NCBI RefSeq assembly: GCF_010501075.1
Contig: NZ_QVMN01000002.1
Span: 310,001-374,000 of the forward strand
Origin: Dysgonomonas sp. 25
GTDB lineage: Bacteria; Bacteroidota; Bacteroidia; Bacteroidales; Dysgonomonadaceae
Direction: 5' to 3'
DNA: 64,000 nucleotides
The number at the start of each line of letters is the position of its first letter. The first letter of the stretch is position 1. Positions 7,612 through 54,124 of the stretch are shown in pieces. A program made the translations under genes and the position numbers. The notes below the pieces were generated by a model that saw nothing but the letters and a program-made list of their open reading frames with translations, was not told the DNA's origin and ran no database searches.

Positions 7612-7685
<74 letters not shown>

Positions 7686-46857: not shown

Positions 46858-47313
46858 ATGAAAAATATATTAATATTAGCAATTCTGTTACTCGGTACGG
46901 TTTCGATGAATGCCCAACAAAAGGGAGGCGGACGCGGCAATTTTGATTTGGATGCATTCAAGGCCGAACGAATGACTTACTTTACGAAAGAGTTGAAACT
47001 GACGGATGCTCAAGCTAAAACGTTTGCGCCGATATTCAACGAGTTTATGTCGAAAAAGTTCCAGGCGAATAAAGAAGCCCGTACAAAAGCGAGAGATATA
47101 CACCATAACGGGGCAAAAAGCGAAGCCAGCTATCGCGGAGCTACTCAGGCTTTTCTCGATGCCAAAGTAGAGGAAGCTAAAATTCAGAAGGAATACTATA
47201 AGAAATTGGAATCGGTATTGACTGCCGAACAGCTCTATAATTTCTCGAAGGTCGAAATGGATTTTATGAAGAACTGGATTGAGAAAAATAATAGAAATCA
47301 CCATCATTATTAA
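46858..47313 (+). CDS. Spy/LTXXQ-like periplasmic protein
   Basis: A 151-residue exported protein with a signal peptide (about 1-20, cleavage near MNAQ). The mature part is helical and charged, with KELKLTDAQAKTFAPIF and KLESVLTAEQLYNFSK, both resembling the LTxxQ motifs of Spy/CpxP-type chaperones, and a histidine-rich end NRNHHHY. It is the last gene of the TPR-sigma-anti-sigma group and could be a stress-induced chaperone or metal binder. Confidence 0.78.
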   Translation: MKNILILAILLLGTVSMNAQQKGGGRGNFDLDAFKAERMTYFTKELKLTDAQAKTFAPIFNEFMSKKFQANKEARTKARDIHHNGAKSEASYRGATQAFLDAKVEEAKIQKEYYKKLESVLTAEQLYNFSKVEMDFMKNWIEKNNRNHHHY

Positions 47314-47330
47314 AAAAAGATGACTTATTG

Positions 47331-47361
47331 TTTGGATTTTTAATATAAAGCTGTATTTTTG
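47331..47361 (+). promoter_or_regulatory. his operon promoter
   Basis: TTTG at 47331-47334 and TATTTTTG at 47354-47361 are exactly 19 bp apart, the Bacteroidetes consensus. The expected start is near 47368, just before the leader peptide. Confidence 0.8.
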
Positions 47362-47381
47362 TACAGAATAATAATTGAAAT

Positions 47382-47432
47382 ATGAATAAAAGATTACATA
47401 ACCATCATAAACTAATTACTACCCCAAGGTAA
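47382..47432 (+). CDS. hisL: Histidine operon leader peptide
   Basis: ATG 47382 opens a 16-codon frame reading MNKRLHNHHKLITTPR, with three histidines in four codons (His6, His8, His9), and ends at TAA 47430-47432. The stop overlaps the GGTAAG that can pair with the downstream terminator arm. This is a textbook attenuator leader: ribosome stalling at His codons when His-tRNA is scarce would expose GGTAAG. Confidence 0.8.
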   Translation: MNKRLHNHHKLITTPR

Positions 47433-47505
47433 GTGATAAGGGAATGATTTTGTTGTAATCTGAAAAATATACCGGAGCTTACCATAGATGTGGTAAGCTC
47501 TTTTT
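47391..47505 (+). promoter_or_regulatory. Histidine transcription attenuator
   Basis: Four elements are readable. AGATTACA (47391-47398, over the His codons) can pair with TGTAATCT (47454-47461). GGTAAG (47428-47433, at the leader stop codon) can pair with CTTACC (47478-47483) as antiterminator. GAGCTTACCA (47475-47484) pairs perfectly with TGGTAAGCTC (47491-47500), followed by TTTTT (47501-47505), as terminator. A ribosome at the leader stop would mask GGTAAG and favour termination; a ribosome stalled at His codons would leave it free. Confidence 0.8.
47475..47505 (+). terminator. his attenuator terminator
   Basis: A perfect 10-bp stem with a 6-base loop (TAGATG) followed by T5, 26 bp before hisG. 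Confidence 0.85.
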
Positions 47506-47530
47506 GTATAACCCCCAACAATAAGTTGCT

Positions 47531-48385
47531 ATGATATTGAGAATTGCAGTACAATCGAAAGGACGCCTTTTCGAAGAAACGATGGAACTTCTGGAGGAAG
47601 CCGGAATCAAACTAAACAACAAAAAGCGGACATTGCTTGTCCCCGCCAAGGGTTTCCCGATAGAAGTCCTTTTCCTTCGCGACGATGACATTCCGCAGGC
47701 TGTGGCTACAGGCGTTGCCGATATAGGGATTGTAGGAGAAAACGAATTTGTAGAAAAGAACGAAGATGCTACCATCGTTAAACGCTTAGGGTTCAGTACC
47801 TGTCGTCTTTCGCTGGCTATCCCCAAAGATGAGGATTATCAGAACCTCGGATGGTTCGAAGGCAAAAAGATAGCCACCTCTTATCCGCATATCCTCAAGC
47901 AATATCTGCAACAATCGAATATCAATTCCGAAATACATGTCATTACCGGCTCGGTCGAAATCTCGCCCAGCATTGGTCTGGCAGATGCTATTTTCGACAT
48001 TGTCAGTTCGGGCGGGACATTGGTCAGCAACCGCCTGAAAGAAGTGGAAATCGTGATGCAATCCGAAGCCTTGTTAATAGCAACGAATCATTTGCCCGGA
48101 GAAAAACAAGCAATCCTCGACGAATTGATATTCCGTATCGAAGCTGTACAAACGGCCACAGATAAGAAATATATCATGCTCAATGCGCCCGAAGAAAAAC
48201 TGGATGAGATAATCGGCGTTTTGCCCGGTATGAAAAGTCCCACTGTGACGCCTCTGGCGACAAAAGGCTGGTGTTCGGTGCAGTCGGTTATCGACGACGA
48301 ATCGTTCTGGGCTGTGATTAGTAGCCTGAAATCGCTTGGCGCAGAGGGTATTATTGTTTTACCTATAGAAAAAATGATTTTATGA
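47531..48385 (+). CDS. hisG: ATP phosphoribosyltransferase (long form)
   Basis: A 284-residue HisG of the long type: catalytic domain (1-210; MILRIAVQSKGRLFEETMELL, VATGVADIGIVGENE, DIVSSGGTLVSNRL) and a C-terminal regulatory ACT-like domain (about 212-284) that normally binds histidine for feedback inhibition, so no HisZ is needed. It condenses ATP and PRPP in the first step of histidine synthesis. Stop overlaps the next start by 4 bp. Confidence 0.97.
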   Translation: MILRIAVQSKGRLFEETMELLEEAGIKLNNKKRTLLVPAKGFPIEVLFLRDDDIPQAVATGVADIGIVGENEFVEKNEDATIVKRLGFSTCRLSLAIPKDEDYQNLGWFEGKKIATSYPHILKQYLQQSNINSEIHVITGSVEISPSIGLADAIFDIVSSGGTLVSNRLKEVEIVMQSEALLIATNHLPGEKQAILDELIFRIEAVQTATDKKYIMLNAPEEKLDEIIGVLPGMKSPTVTPLATKGWCSVQSVIDDESFWAVISSLKSLGAEGIIVLPIEKMIL

Positions 48386-48909
48386 TACCGGTTTCGGATG
48401 ACATACTATTGCAACCCTTGTCGCAGGAGCATAGCCCTTTGATATTCAATGCAATTGATAGTCAGCGGGAGTATATGCGCACATGGTTGCCCTTTGTCGA
48501 TTCTACGCACGAAGTAGGCGATACGCAAAAAGCCTTGGAAGGCTTGATTGACGGGATTAATGAGCAGTTTGTTATTTACTACAAACATGAATTTGTAGGG
48601 TTAGTCGGATTCAAGGATACTGATGCCGGCAACAAACGAACGGAAATTGGTTACTGGTTGTCGCAATGTGCACAAGGAAAGGGTATTATGACCAAATCCG
48701 TTCTGCGCTTATTATCCTATGCTTTCGAAGAAAAAGAACTGAATCGGGTGCAAATAAAAGTAGCCGTGAAAAATAAAAAAAGCCGTGCAATACCCGAACG
48801 GATTGGTTTTCAGCAGGAAGGGATTGAGCGCGACGGCGAATTACTGGTAGATAACCAATTTACCGATATTGTTGTATACAGTTTACTGAAAAGAGAATTT
48901 AAACGCTGA
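48382..48909 (+). CDS. GNAT N-acetyltransferase (RimL-like)
   Basis: A 175-residue GNAT protein: LQPLSQEHSPLIFNAID, IGYWLSQCAQGKGIMTKSVLRL with the acetyl-CoA pyrophosphate loop QGKGI, and LNRVQIKVAVKNKKSRAI, all as in RimJ/RimL-type ribosomal protein N-acetyltransferases. It overlaps hisG by 4 bp and lies 4 bp before hisD, so it is fully inside the his operon. No known link to histidine synthesis; function within the operon unknown. Confidence 0.88.
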   Translation: MIPVSDDILLQPLSQEHSPLIFNAIDSQREYMRTWLPFVDSTHEVGDTQKALEGLIDGINEQFVIYYKHEFVGLVGFKDTDAGNKRTEIGYWLSQCAQGKGIMTKSVLRLLSYAFEEKELNRVQIKVAVKNKKSRAIPERIGFQQEGIERDGELLVDNQFTDIVVYSLLKREFKR

Positions 48910-48913
48910 TAAC

Positions 48914-50191
48914 ATGCAGATAATCAAATATCCGGTGCGTGATACATGGGCAGACCTCTTGAAGCGTCCGCATTTCGATACATCTTCGTTGCAATCGACA
49001 GTCAATGCGGTGTTGAATGATGTCCGCGAGCGGGGAGATGAAGCCCTTTTCTATTATGCCGAAAAGTTCGATAAGGTAAGGCTGTCTTCCCTCTTGGTGT
49101 CGAAAGAGGAAATCAATGCATCCGAATCGCTCGTTTCGTCCGAACTGAAAACTGCTATCCGTCAGGCGAAACGAAACATAGAGATATTTCATCGTAGTCA
49201 GGTTTTCGAGACGAAGAAAATAGAAACCTCACCGGGTGTCACTTGTTGGCAAAAAGCTGTTGCAATCGAGAAGGTCGGATTGTATATCCCGGGTGGAACA
49301 GCGCCTTTGTTTTCGACGGTTCTGATGCTTGCCATTCCCGCTAAAATAGCAGGCTCGAAAGAGATTATCCTTTGCACCCCCCCCGATAAGGACGGAAAAG
49401 TGCATCCGGCTATCCTCTTTGCAGCCAAGGAAGCGGGCGTAGATAAAATATTCAAAGCCGGAGGGGCACAGGCAATCTCTGCGATGGCCTACGGAACGGA
49501 ATCGGTGCCGAAAGTGTATAAGATATTCGGCCCCGGAAACCAGTATGTGATGGCGGCCAAACAGCTTGTCAGCCTGACGGATGTGGCGATAGACATGCCT
49601 GCCGGTCCTTCGGAAGTGCAGGTGATTGCCGACCGTATGGCTAATCCTGTTTTTATAGCGGCAGACTTGCTCTCGCAGGCTGAGCATGGAGGGGATAGCC
49701 AGGTTATTCTGACAACGACCGACGAAGTTTTGTTGCTGGAGGTTGAGAAAGAGGTTAATCGTCAATTGGCCATGCTTCCTCGTTGCGAGATTGCCACAAA
49801 AGCACTCGATAACAGTAAGTTGATATTGCTGCATACCGATGAAGAAATTATTGAAATGACCAATGAATATGCGCCCGAGCACCTGATTATAGAGACGGAA
49901 AACTATTTGCAGTTAGCTGATAGGGTAGTGAATGCCGGTTCGGTTTTTCTGGGGAATTATACACCCGAAAGTGCAGGCGATTATGCTTCGGGTACGAATC
50001 ATACCTTGCCGACAAGCGGCTATGCAAAAGCATATAGTGGTGTCAATCTGGATAGCTTTGTAAAGAAAATAACTTTTCAGGAGATAACCCGCGAAGGTAT
50101 TCGCCATTTGGGCGGTACAATCGAGGTAATGGCTGAAAATGAGCAACTTTACGCGCATAAAAATGCTGTAACGGTAAGGATGAAAGAATGA
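48914..50191 (+). CDS. hisD: Histidinol dehydrogenase
   Basis: A 425-residue HisD. Recognisable are KVGLYIPGGTAPLFSTVLM, GGAQAISAMAYGTESVPKV, IFGPGNQYVMAAKQ, DMPAGPSEVQVIAD, the zinc/catalytic LLSQAEHGGDSQ and NEYAPEHLI. It oxidises histidinol to histidine in two NAD-dependent steps. Its stop overlaps the next start by 4 bp. Confidence 0.97.
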   Translation: MQIIKYPVRDTWADLLKRPHFDTSSLQSTVNAVLNDVRERGDEALFYYAEKFDKVRLSSLLVSKEEINASESLVSSELKTAIRQAKRNIEIFHRSQVFETKKIETSPGVTCWQKAVAIEKVGLYIPGGTAPLFSTVLMLAIPAKIAGSKEIILCTPPDKDGKVHPAILFAAKEAGVDKIFKAGGAQAISAMAYGTESVPKVYKIFGPGNQYVMAAKQLVSLTDVAIDMPAGPSEVQVIADRMANPVFIAADLLSQAEHGGDSQVILTTTDEVLLLEVEKEVNRQLAMLPRCEIATKALDNSKLILLHTDEEIIEMTNEYAPEHLIIETENYLQLADRVVNAGSVFLGNYTPESAGDYASGTNHTLPTSGYAKAYSGVNLDSFVKKITFQEITREGIRHLGGTIEVMAENEQLYAHKNAVTVRMKE

Positions 50192-50631
50192 TTTACGAGA
50201 AGGAAATAATATATGGTACATCGGAGCATCAAGAGATGATTGCGCTTCGGAACAGGATATTGCGCGAACCGTGGGGACTTTCTTTCTCGGACGAAGATTT
50301 GAAAAAAGAAAGAAATGATTTTTTGCTTTGCTGCTGCAATGTAAAAGATGATAAAATTGTAGGATGTTGCGTCCTCACACCTTTGAATGATAATACGTTA
50401 CAATTGAGACAGATGGCTGTTGAATCATTTCGCCAAGGGAAAGGTATTGGTTCTAAGATATTGTTCTTCGCAGAAGAAATAGCTAAGAAAAATCAATATA
50501 AATATATATACCTTCATGCACGCAAAGAAGCTGTTGCCTTTTACAAAAAAAATGGATATGATGTAGAAGGCGAAGAGTTTATCGAAGTGGGTATGCCTCA
50601 CTATGAGATGTTGAAAAAAATACTATTATAG
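50188..50631 (+). CDS. GNAT N-acetyltransferase
   Basis: A 147-residue GNAT domain protein of the ElaA/YitI kind: [34 protein letters not shown] (acetyl-CoA loop QGKGIG) and [23 protein letters not shown]. It lies between hisD (4-bp overlap) and hisC (2 bp ahead), so it is translated with them. Not related closely to the other GNAT of the operon. Substrate unknown. Confidence 0.88.
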
Positions 50632-50633
50632 AT

Positions 50634-51668
50634 ATGAAAGATTTACAACAACTGGTTCGTCCGAATATCTGGAGCCTGAAACCTTATTCTTCGGCTCGCG
50701 ACGAATTTAAAGGGGAAGCGTCTGTTTATTTAGATGCTAATGAAAATCCCTTGCGCGACAATTATAACCGCTATCCCGACCCTTTGCAATGGACATTGAA
50801 AGCTAAAATAGCCGAAGTAAAAGGCGTGGCGGCGGAATCTATTTTTCTGGGGAATGGAAGCGACGAGCCTATCGACTTGGTTTTTCGTATCTTTTGCGAG
50901 CCGGCTGTCGATAATGTCGTAGCCATGAATCCTACTTATGGTATGTATCAGGTGTGCGCCGATATTAATCATGTGGAATACAGGAAAGTGGCGTTGAATA
51001 AAGATTTTTCGTTGAATGCAGACCGAATCCTTAGAGCTACGGATGCGAATACGAAAATCATATTTCTTTGCTCACCTAATAACCCGACAGGTAATTTGCT
51101 GGATAAGAAAGAAGTAGAAAAAATAATAACTTCTTTCGATGGGATTGTCGTTGTCGATGAGGCGTATATCGACTTTGCTTCGGAAGGAACTCTTATGGCA
51201 GAATTGGATAACTACCCGAATCTCATTATCTTGCAAACGTTTTCCAAGGCATGGGGATTGGCAGCCGTGCGTTTGGGTATGGCTTTTGCCTCGCCGGAGA
51301 TTATTGGCCTGTTCAATAAGGTGAAATATCCGTATAACGTGAATGCACTTACGCAGGAGTTTGTTTCGAAAGCGTTGGATAATACGGCGCAGACAAAAGC
51401 GTGGATTGATACGATTCTCAAAGGACGGTCGTATCTTGTAGGTGAATTGTCGAAAAATAAGTTGGTGGAAAAGATATATCCGACGGATGCCAATTTTGTC
51501 TTGGTAAAAGTTGCCGATGCCGTAGGGATATATAATAAATTGGCCGAAAAAGGGATTATTGTCCGCAACCGTAATTCTGTTGCTATGTGTGGCGGGTGCC
51601 TGCGGATAACGGTGGGTACGGAGGAGGAGAACCGGAGTTTGATAACAGCATTACAACATTTACAATGA
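50634..51668 (+). CDS. hisC: Histidinol-phosphate aminotransferase
   Basis: A 344-residue class I/II PLP aminotransferase. [49 protein letters not shown] and the PLP lysine in [14 protein letters not shown] (about 203-216) match HisC. It transaminates imidazole-acetol phosphate to histidinol phosphate. Its stop overlaps the start of the next gene (ATGA). Confidence 0.96.
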
Positions 51669-52312
51669 AACGATTCTTTGCGTTTGTCTTTTTGCTCATT
51701 TGGGCTTCTCTGATTTTTACCTGTTCTTCGGCAGGAAATGACACTATTTATATAGATAAGAAAACTATATCAGCGTTGCTGCCTAAAATAAAAGACTGGC
51801 TCGATTATTATAATTTGGATATAAGAAAGTTCAAACCGGATGGAAGTTCGGGGATTTATATACCGCAGGAATACGAAGAATCTATTTTTTGCGCACAGCT
51901 ACCCGCTTCCGATTTGATGTACAAACCCAAGTTGCGGGAATATTCGCCTGATAAGAATTATTGTATACCATTGTATGAGTTTATTGCTCAGTATGATGAG
52001 GAAACAGGTCTCTATTACGGAGGATGGGACGATAGTCAGAGTGTGTGGCTGTATGATAAGTCAAAGAAGTTAGGCTCTGTTATTCAGTTCAATGGCGTGG
52101 GGAGCATCACCGAAGCTGCTTATTGGTTAGATAATAATACCTTTGTCTTGCTTGGGTATGAATGTGTTGATAATTATAAATTTACATTGCGTCTGTGTAA
52201 TTTGCAAACGGAGGATGCTGTCCATTATTCATTAGAGAAGGAACAGCCCGAAGAAGGAAAATCTTATTATACATTTGTATTGGCAAAACGGGGGATAGAG
52301 ATAATCGAGTAG
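51665..52312 (+). CDS. Hypothetical lipoprotein, paralogue 1
   Basis: A 215-residue protein from ATG 51665 (a longer frame from 51587 would run into hisC). The signal peptide ends in a lipobox-like FTC (Cys20), so it is probably a lipoprotein. The mature domain has [30 protein letters not shown] and [14 protein letters not shown]. The following gene encodes a clear paralogue sharing KP.LREYSP.K, DDSQ..WLY and AYWLD.NT. No family recognised. Starts by a 4-bp overlap with hisC, in the his operon. Confidence 0.78.
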
Positions 52313-52330
52313 TCGATAAACAAGTGAAAT

Positions 52331-52993
52331 ATGAAAAAGAGAGCTGGTTTTATTCTTCTATTGTGCTTGGTTGGGTTGGTAATGCCGTGTAGGGCATCGC
52401 AGCCTCCGATAGATACCGCTCTGGTAGCTAAGATTCAACCATTGCTGTTGGGTTGGGCTAACTTTTATGGAGTAGCTGTAAAAGACTTTGAAAGATTATC
52501 TTCCAATCATAGCTTTATGCCCGAGCATATTGCATCGATAGACGGAAAGACGGACGAAACATTTTTTGTCGTGAAATTATCCGATGCAGAGTTGAAATAT
52601 AAACCACTTTTGCGCGAATATTCTCCGAATAAGCGATATTATGTTCCTTTATATGAGCATATTGTTTTTTATGATGACGAAAATAAGCAATATTATACCG
52701 GATTGGACGACAGCCAGAACATTTGGTTGTACAATACCAAGACGGCTCTGGGCTATATGATACAGTTTGTCGGTTCGTCATCTATTGCCGAAGGGGCTTA
52801 TTGGTTGGACGATAATACGCTGATTTTGTTGGGAAAAGAATACGATCGCGAGACGCATCTTTTCTTTATCATATTCGATTTCGGAACGATGAAAAGCAGT
52901 TATTTTTATGATAATAGAGGAGGCGATTACGAGAAATCCTCTTTTTACCGCTATGTTTTGAAGAAAAGAGGATTGAATATCAATGACGATTAG
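52331..52993 (+). CDS. Hypothetical exported protein, paralogue 2
   Basis: A 220-residue protein with a signal peptide (about 1-23, ending PCRAS). It aligns over most of its length with the previous protein: KPLLREYSPNKRYYVPLYE, LDDSQNIWLYN, GAYWLDDNTLILLG. The pair is therefore a tandem duplication. It lies 18 bp after paralogue 1 and 15 bp before hisB. Function unknown. Confidence 0.8.
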   Translation: MKKRAGFILLLCLVGLVMPCRASQPPIDTALVAKIQPLLLGWANFYGVAVKDFERLSSNHSFMPEHIASIDGKTDETFFVVKLSDAELKYKPLLREYSPNKRYYVPLYEHIVFYDDENKQYYTGLDDSQNIWLYNTKTALGYMIQFVGSSSIAEGAYWLDDNTLILLGKEYDRETHLFFIIFDFGTMKSSYFYDNRGGDYEKSSFYRYVLKKRGLNINDD

Positions 52994-53008: not shown

Positions 53009-54124
53009 ATGAAAAAGAGAGCATTATTCATCGATAGGGACGGTACATTAGTGATAGAGCCACCGGTTGATTATCAGTTAGATAGTTTTGAGAAACTGGA
53101 GTTTTACCCGAAAGTTATCCGAAACCTGTATTTTATCCGTCAACAACTGGATTTTGAGTTTGTGATGGTAACCAATCAGGACGGCTTGGGTACAGCTTCT
53201 TTTCCCGAACAGACTTTCTGGGGCGTGCATAACCTGATGATGCAGACCTTCAAAGGGGAGGGGATAACCTTCGATGATGTGCTGATTGACCGCAGTTTCC
53301 CTGATGACCACTTGCCGACTCGAAAACCGGGCATCGGTATGCTGGGCAAGTATACGGGCGGCGACTACGATATGGAACACTCTTTCGTTATCGGCGACCG
53401 TCTGACGGATGTCGAACTGGCAAAGAATCTGGGATGTAAAGCTATTTTTATGCGCGATGATATGGACATACCCGCAGAACTGCTTCCGTATTGTGTGTTG
53501 CAAACGACAGACTGGGACAAAATTACCGAGTTCCTGTTTGCAGGGGAACGAAAAGCCGAAGTGAAGCGCGCAACGGCCGAAACGGACATATATATAGCCC
53601 TCAATCTGGATGGAAATGGAAAGTGCGATATTTCGACCGGATTGGGATTTTTCGACCACATGCTGGAACAAATTGGGAAGCATGGCGGGTTGGATTTGAC
53701 CATACAGGTGAAAGGCGACTTGAATGTAGATGAGCATCATACGATCGAGGATACGGGAATTGCTTTGGGCGAGGTTCTATACAAGGCTTTGGGCGACAAA
53801 CGGGGTATCGAGCGATATGGCTATTGCCTGCCGATGGATGATTGTCTTTGTCAGGTGGCACTGGATTTTGGCGGCCGTCCGTGGCTGGTCTGGGATGCTG
53901 AATTCAAGCGCGAAAGGGTAGGGGATATGCCTACCGAAATGTTTTTGCATTTCTTCAAGTCGTTGAGCGATAGCGCCAAAATGAATCTGAACATCAAAGC
54001 CGAGGGAGAAAACGAGCATCATAAAATCGAGGGTATTTTCAAAGCCTTTGCACGGGCACTGAAGATGGCGAAGAAACGCGATATATTCAATTATGAACTG
54101 CCTTCCACCAAGGGTGTGCTATGA
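53009..54124 (+). CDS. hisB: Bifunctional histidinol-phosphatase / imidazoleglycerol-phosphate dehydratase
   Basis: A 371-residue fusion. The N-terminal HAD phosphatase (about 1-165) has [12 protein letters not shown] with the nucleophile aspartates and [14 protein letters not shown]; the C-terminal dehydratase (about 178-371) has two Mn-binding histidine motifs, [15 protein letters not shown] and [17 protein letters not shown]. It catalyses steps 6 and 8 of histidine synthesis. The last his gene in the window; hisA, hisF, hisH and hisIE are not here. Confidence 0.97.

Follow-up and report, generated by a model that had tools for sequence, protein, structure and literature searches.

The his locus and its leader region

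The window, meaning the whole 64-kb stretch of DNA analysed here, belongs to a genome of 3,740,605 bases in 58 contigs and carries hisG on the forward strand at 47531-48385 (TIGR00070, E 1.2e-59). Its nearest HisG in the named collection is that of an uncultured Dysgonomonas (86%), and the next-ranked matches are mostly from Dysgonomonas as well, with some under a Prevotella label. On the same strand follow hisD (48914-50191; TIGR00069, E 4.7e-161), hisC (50634-51668; TIGR01141, E 8.9e-107), and a bifunctional hisB (53009-54124; NF003937, E 4.4e-164), which, judging from strand and spacing, probably form an operon with hisG. Two GNAT acetyltransferase-like genes, with matches all under the curated cut-offs, lie between hisG, hisD, and hisC (48382-48909 and 50188-50631). 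Two genes between hisC and hisB (51587-52993) encode mutually similar proteins with apparent signal sequences, as judged by eye. The gene upstream of hisG (46858-47313) has a weak likeness to Spy/CpxP, under the family cut-offs. Its tail (47257-47313) terminates in RNHHHY, and tail His residues are also found in some relatives; this tail was considered as part of the leader and excluded, since no terminator directly follows that gene.

Between the upstream gene and hisG, a promoter, a short open reading frame (ORF), and an intrinsic terminator can be read on the forward strand. The promoter consists of a -33 element TTTG (47331-47334) and a -7 element TATTTTTG (47354-47361) separated by 19 bases, and the latter is of the TAnnTTTG type, the Bacteroidota-type promoter consensus. 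The consensus promoter asserted in the preliminary description is located, and its motif recurs in relatives (see below). A sigma-70 consensus scan returned 26 sites, compared to 23.2 in shuffles, and was uninformative for this region. Transcription would start near 47367, approximately 15 nt ahead of the ATG of the leader ORF MNKRLHNHHKLITTPR (47382-47432). This ORF, whose start codon is at 47382 and whose TAA stop is at 47430-47432, has 16 codons and encodes His6, His8, and His9. The three CAT codons (47397-47399, 47403-47405, and 47406-47408) form, together with the AAC (Asn) of codon 7, the regulatory block CAT AAC CAT CAT (47397-47408). The leader of 16 residues, its His codons, and its stop had been placed correctly from the start, base for base.

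The leader RNA contains two alternative pairings and the terminator, all of which the preliminary description had proposed and all of which are present where it put them. Segment 1, AGATTACA (47391-47398), would be hidden by a ribosome at the His codons and pairs with segment 1', TGTAATCT (47454-47461); both are supported by sequence, folding, and covariation. Nested inside this 1:1' stem is a predicted inner hairpin (47415-47437; arms 47415-47423 and 47428-47437), which also hides segment 2. Segment 2, GGTAAG (47428-47433), overlaps the stop codon, copies part of the 3' arm of the terminator, and covaries with its partner, segment 3 (CTTACC, 47478-47483), in the 5' arm of the terminator. The terminator itself (47474-47505) has a 12-bp stem (47474-47485/47490-47501) with a loop of 4, followed by a T run, and hisG, 29 nt away, is the first gene past it. 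The RNA of 139 nt folds at -39.0 kcal/mol (z -5.77), a value equaled by 0 of 200 dinucleotide shuffles. On both strands of the window, four short ORFs that start with ATG carry 3 His in a span of 5 codons, and the hisG leader alone among them has a terminator after it; 20 block shuffles of the window gave a mean of 1.75 such ORFs, none with a terminator.

Conservation and covariation among relatives

Conservation was assessed at 93 distinct hisG loci, comprising 66 from a HisG search, the window, 6 further loci, and 20 from the family's other genera. The 6 further loci were drawn from a set of 30, of which 23 repeats and the window itself were set aside; in one listing, 50 of 87 hisG places were examined. 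A His leader followed by a terminator is present at 83 of the 93 loci, namely 61, plus 3 lying more than 330 nt from hisG (L009, L047, and L061), plus 19 of the 20 from other genera. The combination was not found as searched at 10 of the 93 (L020, L030, L038, L041, L044, L045, L048, L049, L062, and L103). One of these, L020 (Dysgonomonas sp. 520), keeps a terminator ahead of hisG, but a search over 1.5 kb found no ORF with both an ATG start and clustered His; perhaps it represents a natural loss of the His leader.

The number of His residues varies across the 83 leaders, with 2 in two, 3 in eight, 4 in thirty-eight, 5 in twenty-three, 6 in eleven, and 7 in one. The earlier remark that only three His suffice is the less well supported part of the preliminary description: the window leader does have three, but three are not unusual, given a range of 2-7 and 10 of 83 leaders with three or fewer. 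Most of 27 aligned Dysgonomonas-like leaders carry CAT CAT CAT CAT as the block, compared to CAT AAC CAT CAT in the window. Leaders from other genera encode, in 18 of 19 cases, a peptide of the type MKxNxLHHHHFHTCxQAS/R. By eye, the segment over the end of this peptide, for example TCAGGCGAG, lies opposite CGTCTGA or a close variant of it within the terminator, and both sides of the segment 2:3 pairing are replaced relative to the window.

The promoter is shared as well. TAnnTTTG precedes the leader at 77 of the 83 loci (shuffled mean 6.0) and ends 17-26 nt ahead of the leader ATG in 68 of those 77, and the full motif TTTG-N17-22-TAnnTTTG is found at 50 of 83 (shuffled mean 0.15). Shine-Dalgarno-like tetramers (GGAG, AGGA, GAGG, AGGG, or GGGG) are absent 4-16 nt before the ATG in all 83 leaders. 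The short, near-constant 5' stretch makes immediate ribosome loading plausible.

Pairing between segments was evaluated with a swap test, in which each leader's own segments were compared to segments exchanged between leaders over 10,000 permutations. In the 83 leaders, the 1:1' pairing has a native mean of -14.59 kcal/mol vs. -11.58 kcal/mol when permuted (z -11.1), and the pairing of segment 2 with the 5' arm of the terminator has -10.71 vs. -8.92 kcal/mol (z -8.1); in neither case does any of the 10,000 permutations do as well as the native set. The same was true of each pairing in 29 mutually dissimilar leaders (z -7.9 for 1:1' and z -5.1 for segment 2:3; 0/10,000 each). The terminator stem, which served as a positive control, gave z -15.7 in the 83 leaders, and five decoy pairings (the pre-ATG region vs. 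either partner, the post-terminator region, and two reversed segments) gave no signal in either leader set (z -1.1 to +0.6). Within the 27 Dysgonomonas-like leaders alone, 1:1' stands out (1 of 5,000 permutations reaches the native value), whereas segment 2:3 is indistinguishable from swaps (577/5,000), because this pairing hardly varies there. An RNAalifold consensus of the same 27 aligned leaders contains the terminator, with 11 consensus pairs of which 4 are changed on both sides, and neither alternative pairing; in our reading, 1:1' is missed because its register shifts between species. The preliminary description had staked its interpretation on conserved His codons and pairings in relatives, and this is what was found: 83 of 93 loci keep leader and terminator, and both pairings covary.

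The leaders extend beyond the family. In a phylum sample of 118 genomes (own included), HisG was found in 103. The upstream regions analyzed came from every one of the 59 other genomes whose HisG identity is at least 40% and from 20 of the 43 below that identity. His leader and terminator were detected together in 30 of the 59, the detector failing in 29, and in 0 of the 20 divergent-HisG genomes. The same detector set to any other residue gave no more than 3 positives among the 79 regions, and a few of the matches in this sample (e.g., L141, L148, and L180) may be due to chance. Regardless of a terminator, an ATG-started His-rich short ORF was found in 41 of 59 and 0 of 20 regions, compared to 0.6% of shuffled regions.

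Folding states, ribosome position, and alternative readings

To follow the pairings through successive states, the window RNA was folded with different parts masked by a ribosome footprint. When only the 5' arm of the terminator has emerged in the nascent RNA and no ribosome is present, the 1:1' stem has a probability of 0.98 and the antiterminator 0.00, with segment 2 additionally sequestered in the inner hairpin of the model. With the A site of the ribosome at His6, His8, or His9, the antiterminator rises to 0.67, 0.997, and 0.999, respectively. With the ribosome at the stop, it returns to 0.00, and 1:1' is also not formed. Once the full terminator has emerged, it wins at equilibrium in every state (probability 0.997); therefore, the switch would have to be kinetic and set by the order of synthesis. 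Such kinetic dependence is usual for switches of this type. Folding and covariation both indicate that the antiterminator and the terminator have one arm in common and are mutually exclusive, and the footprint model combined with folding predicts that the ribosome frees segment 2 at the regulatory codons and masks it at the stop.

The positions of these elements were also counted in 80 of the 83 leaders, those whose duplex is as strong as -7 kcal/mol or stronger (the weaker L025, L040, and L050 were left out). Because the search region partly bounds the positions, the counts are supportive only: segment 2 is covered, in whole or in part, by a ribosome at the stop in 80 of 80 leaders and wholly in 69, it lies wholly downstream of a ribosome at the last His codon in 67, and in the other 13 it starts 11-13 nt past that codon, where partial cover is expected.

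Taken with the sequence, the pairings, the covariation, the geometry, and the predicted thermodynamics, the device is very probably one of ribosome-mediated transcription attenuation that senses charged tRNA-His. Under this reading, a ribosome would follow at once behind the polymerase that starts some 15 nt ahead of the leader ATG. When histidine is short, the ribosome would wait with its A site at a His codon and cover segment 1, leaving GGTAAG free to pair with CTTACC on its emergence; the terminator would then come too late, and hisG and the genes beyond it would be transcribed. With ample histidine, the ribosome would reach the stop inside segment 2 and cover it, so that the terminator forms. 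With no ribosome, 1:1' would pair and the inner hairpin would hide segment 2, making termination the default. The start of transcription, the translation of the leader, the waiting of the ribosome, and the regulatory response are all presumed in this scheme, and a rise in expression upon limitation of charged tRNA-His belongs to the proposed reading. The attenuation that the preliminary description saw in this Bacteroidetes his operon is, at the level of sequence and model, supported by conserved leaders, covariation, and folding.

Other readings of the same elements account for less of this evidence. It is extremely unlikely that the hairpin merely terminates the upstream gene and that the short ORF arose by chance. 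The terminator does lie 160 nt past that gene, and L020 keeps a terminator without an ATG-started His leader; however, a promoter motif and a His leader intervene and recur across loci, leader and covarying pairings accompany hisG in other genera and families, and the frequency of His-rich short ORFs in shuffled upstream regions (0.6%) is far from that in real ones (41/59). A His leader with a different read-out, be it translational control of hisG, Rho-dependent termination, or a peptide acting in trans, is very unlikely here. In some Bacteroidota His leaders, the detector found no intrinsic terminator, which would suit such a read-out, but this locus has a 12-bp terminator with a T run whose 5' arm covaries with segment 2, and the predicted folds leave the start of hisG downstream of the terminator.

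The probability that the element is a metabolite riboswitch, a T-box, or a small RNA rather than a ribosome sensor is negligible. The sole weak Rfam match in its favor is the small RNA GibS (23.2 bits, E 0.27, gathering score 115), which was rejected as chance. At the gathering score, the window matches a single Rfam family, one tRNA at 7612-7685, and the hisG loci of six relatives match none; moreover, the conserved element is an ORF that codes for His.

Related leaders and known attenuators

Leaders of similar design precede other amino-acid genes of the same genome. Seven stretches upstream of such genes were located via five Pfam families, and four leaders there share the promoter type (TAnnTTTG box) and a terminator. 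These are a Trp leader (WWW), MQFQLVNIYWWWRLRNKKS, before a trpB-like gene assigned by eye (L117, from base 672); a Phe/Tyr-rich leader, MLGNSYTYFGFYFYFFRK, before a prephenate dehydratase gene (L118, from base 913); an Ile/Leu/Val-rich leader, MTNCILHVLVLDILVLWQNK, before ilvD (L119, reverse complement, from base 887); and a Leu/Ile-rich leader, MQLYTNLISLIILLWRNSGVRLAV, before an HMGL-family gene (L121, from base 904). No leader was seen before a homoserine dehydrogenase gene, a second HMGL-like gene, and a second chorismate-binding gene. Antiterminator candidates beat shuffles for phe (1/200 reach) and ilv (0/200). For trp, 5 of 200 shuffles reach the candidate, whose duplex lies 28 nt before the stop and atop the Trp codons; a ribosome waiting on those codons would cover it, and the duplex is not established as a proper antiterminator. 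For the leu-like leader, GAGTGAGA stands opposite TCTCACTC by eye, and 106 of 200 shuffles reach the native value in an antiterminator test with a shortened arm. Across the genus, the ilvD leader is found at 24 of 25 ilvD-family loci (own included) and in all 24 members with ilvD, and the one locus without it is a second copy in G016, which is divergent. The Phe/Tyr leader is found genus-wide at 9 of 22 under a strict promoter and ATG rule.

A different arrangement is seen in a family of the phylum sample, f22 (L153, L156, L158-L161, L163, L164, L167, L169, L172-L174, and L176), in which 0 of 14 loci passed the test for an intrinsic terminator. Once GTG starts are allowed, a His-rich ORF precedes hisG in all 14 (11 GTG, 3 ATG), with 9-11 His in 13 of them and 4 in L159. 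The 87-113 nt from leader stop to hisG contain 20-29 C vs. 6-12 G. A TAnnTTTG box was found in 7 of 14 and ends 4-5 nt ahead of the start codon; therefore, reading of these leaders perhaps begins almost at the very 5' end of the transcript. His ORFs before hisG with no detected terminator also occur at L126, L128, L151, L152, and L155.

Among characterized systems, the enterobacterial his attenuator (hisL of E. coli and Salmonella) has seven His codons and consecutive hairpins, whereas the window leader has three His codons and a nested pair of outer and inner hairpins, no Rfam match, a TAnnTTTG promoter, and, like all 83 leaders, no Shine-Dalgarno-like tetramer. RF00514, the Rfam histidine leader family, has no match in the window at the gathering score, nor up to E 5 in 47300-47560. 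No claim to a first report is made, because the abstract of Vitreschak 2004 reportedly names Bacteroidetes/Chlorobi. Literature searches covering few subscription journals turned up no report of a Bacteroidota his attenuator other than those cited here. The device almost certainly belongs to a classic, well-known type, and its sequences match no Rfam family where tested.

The window device and hisL have in common, partly as generally understood, a leader with His codons, mutually exclusive hairpins, an intrinsic terminator, and the his operon downstream (PMC9413887). The his attenuators of Firmicutes, whose leaders have three to five His codons and whose attenuator, terminator, and antiterminator were predicted by comparison, resemble it by description in leader and predicted elements and belong to a different phylum (PMC9413887). 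In Flavobacterium psychrophilum, clues to leader-peptide attenuation at amino-acid operons and, separately, a structured 5' element before hisG with no Rfam hit have been described (PMC9723704); by this description, the element shares with the window the phylum, the gene, the lack of an Rfam hit, and the mechanism suggested for amino-acid operons. B. thetaiotaomicron has short ORFs that resemble attenuation leaders within long 5' regions (PMC7366714), and leader genes close to start codons, a separate topic, are treated elsewhere (PMC4833913). The Bacteroid-trp motif (RF01692), like the window device, is a Bacteroidetes cis-regulatory RNA, and its name points to trp genes (PMC2864571). RF01692 has no match in the window at the gathering score, nor up to E 5 in 47300-47560, and none in the own genome at E 0.001 among the 150 scored of 424 first-look candidates, despite the Trp-rich leader there. 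According to two sources, the amino-acid attenuators in Rfam are mainly gamma-proteobacterial and perhaps originated there, with very few transfers (PMC3766115), and none based on amino-acid leaders were known outside Proteobacteria and Actinobacteria before that study's own Firmicutes case (PMC2965389).

Against the view of attenuators as mainly proteobacterial, a his attenuator appears in about half of the phylum sample with similar HisG (30/59). Whether the pattern is more general is a question on which the evidence seems to us evenly poised: leader-peptide attenuation may be a standing control of amino-acid operons in Bacteroidota (in one genome for His, Phe/Tyr, and Ile/Leu/Val, and perhaps for Trp and Leu), with near-fixed spacing from promoter to ATG and no Shine-Dalgarno sequence, while f22 may have dropped the intrinsic terminator and may read a very His-rich leader, in places almost without 5' untranslated RNA, in another way that is perhaps Rho-dependent. 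If this is true, ribosomes must track the polymerase closely at these starts, which would imply coupling of transcription and translation in the phylum. An attenuator of this kind before the his genes would mean that histidine synthesis in gut and environmental Bacteroidota is under a control open to testing, and it would help to tell whether transcription is coupled to translation in these bacteria.
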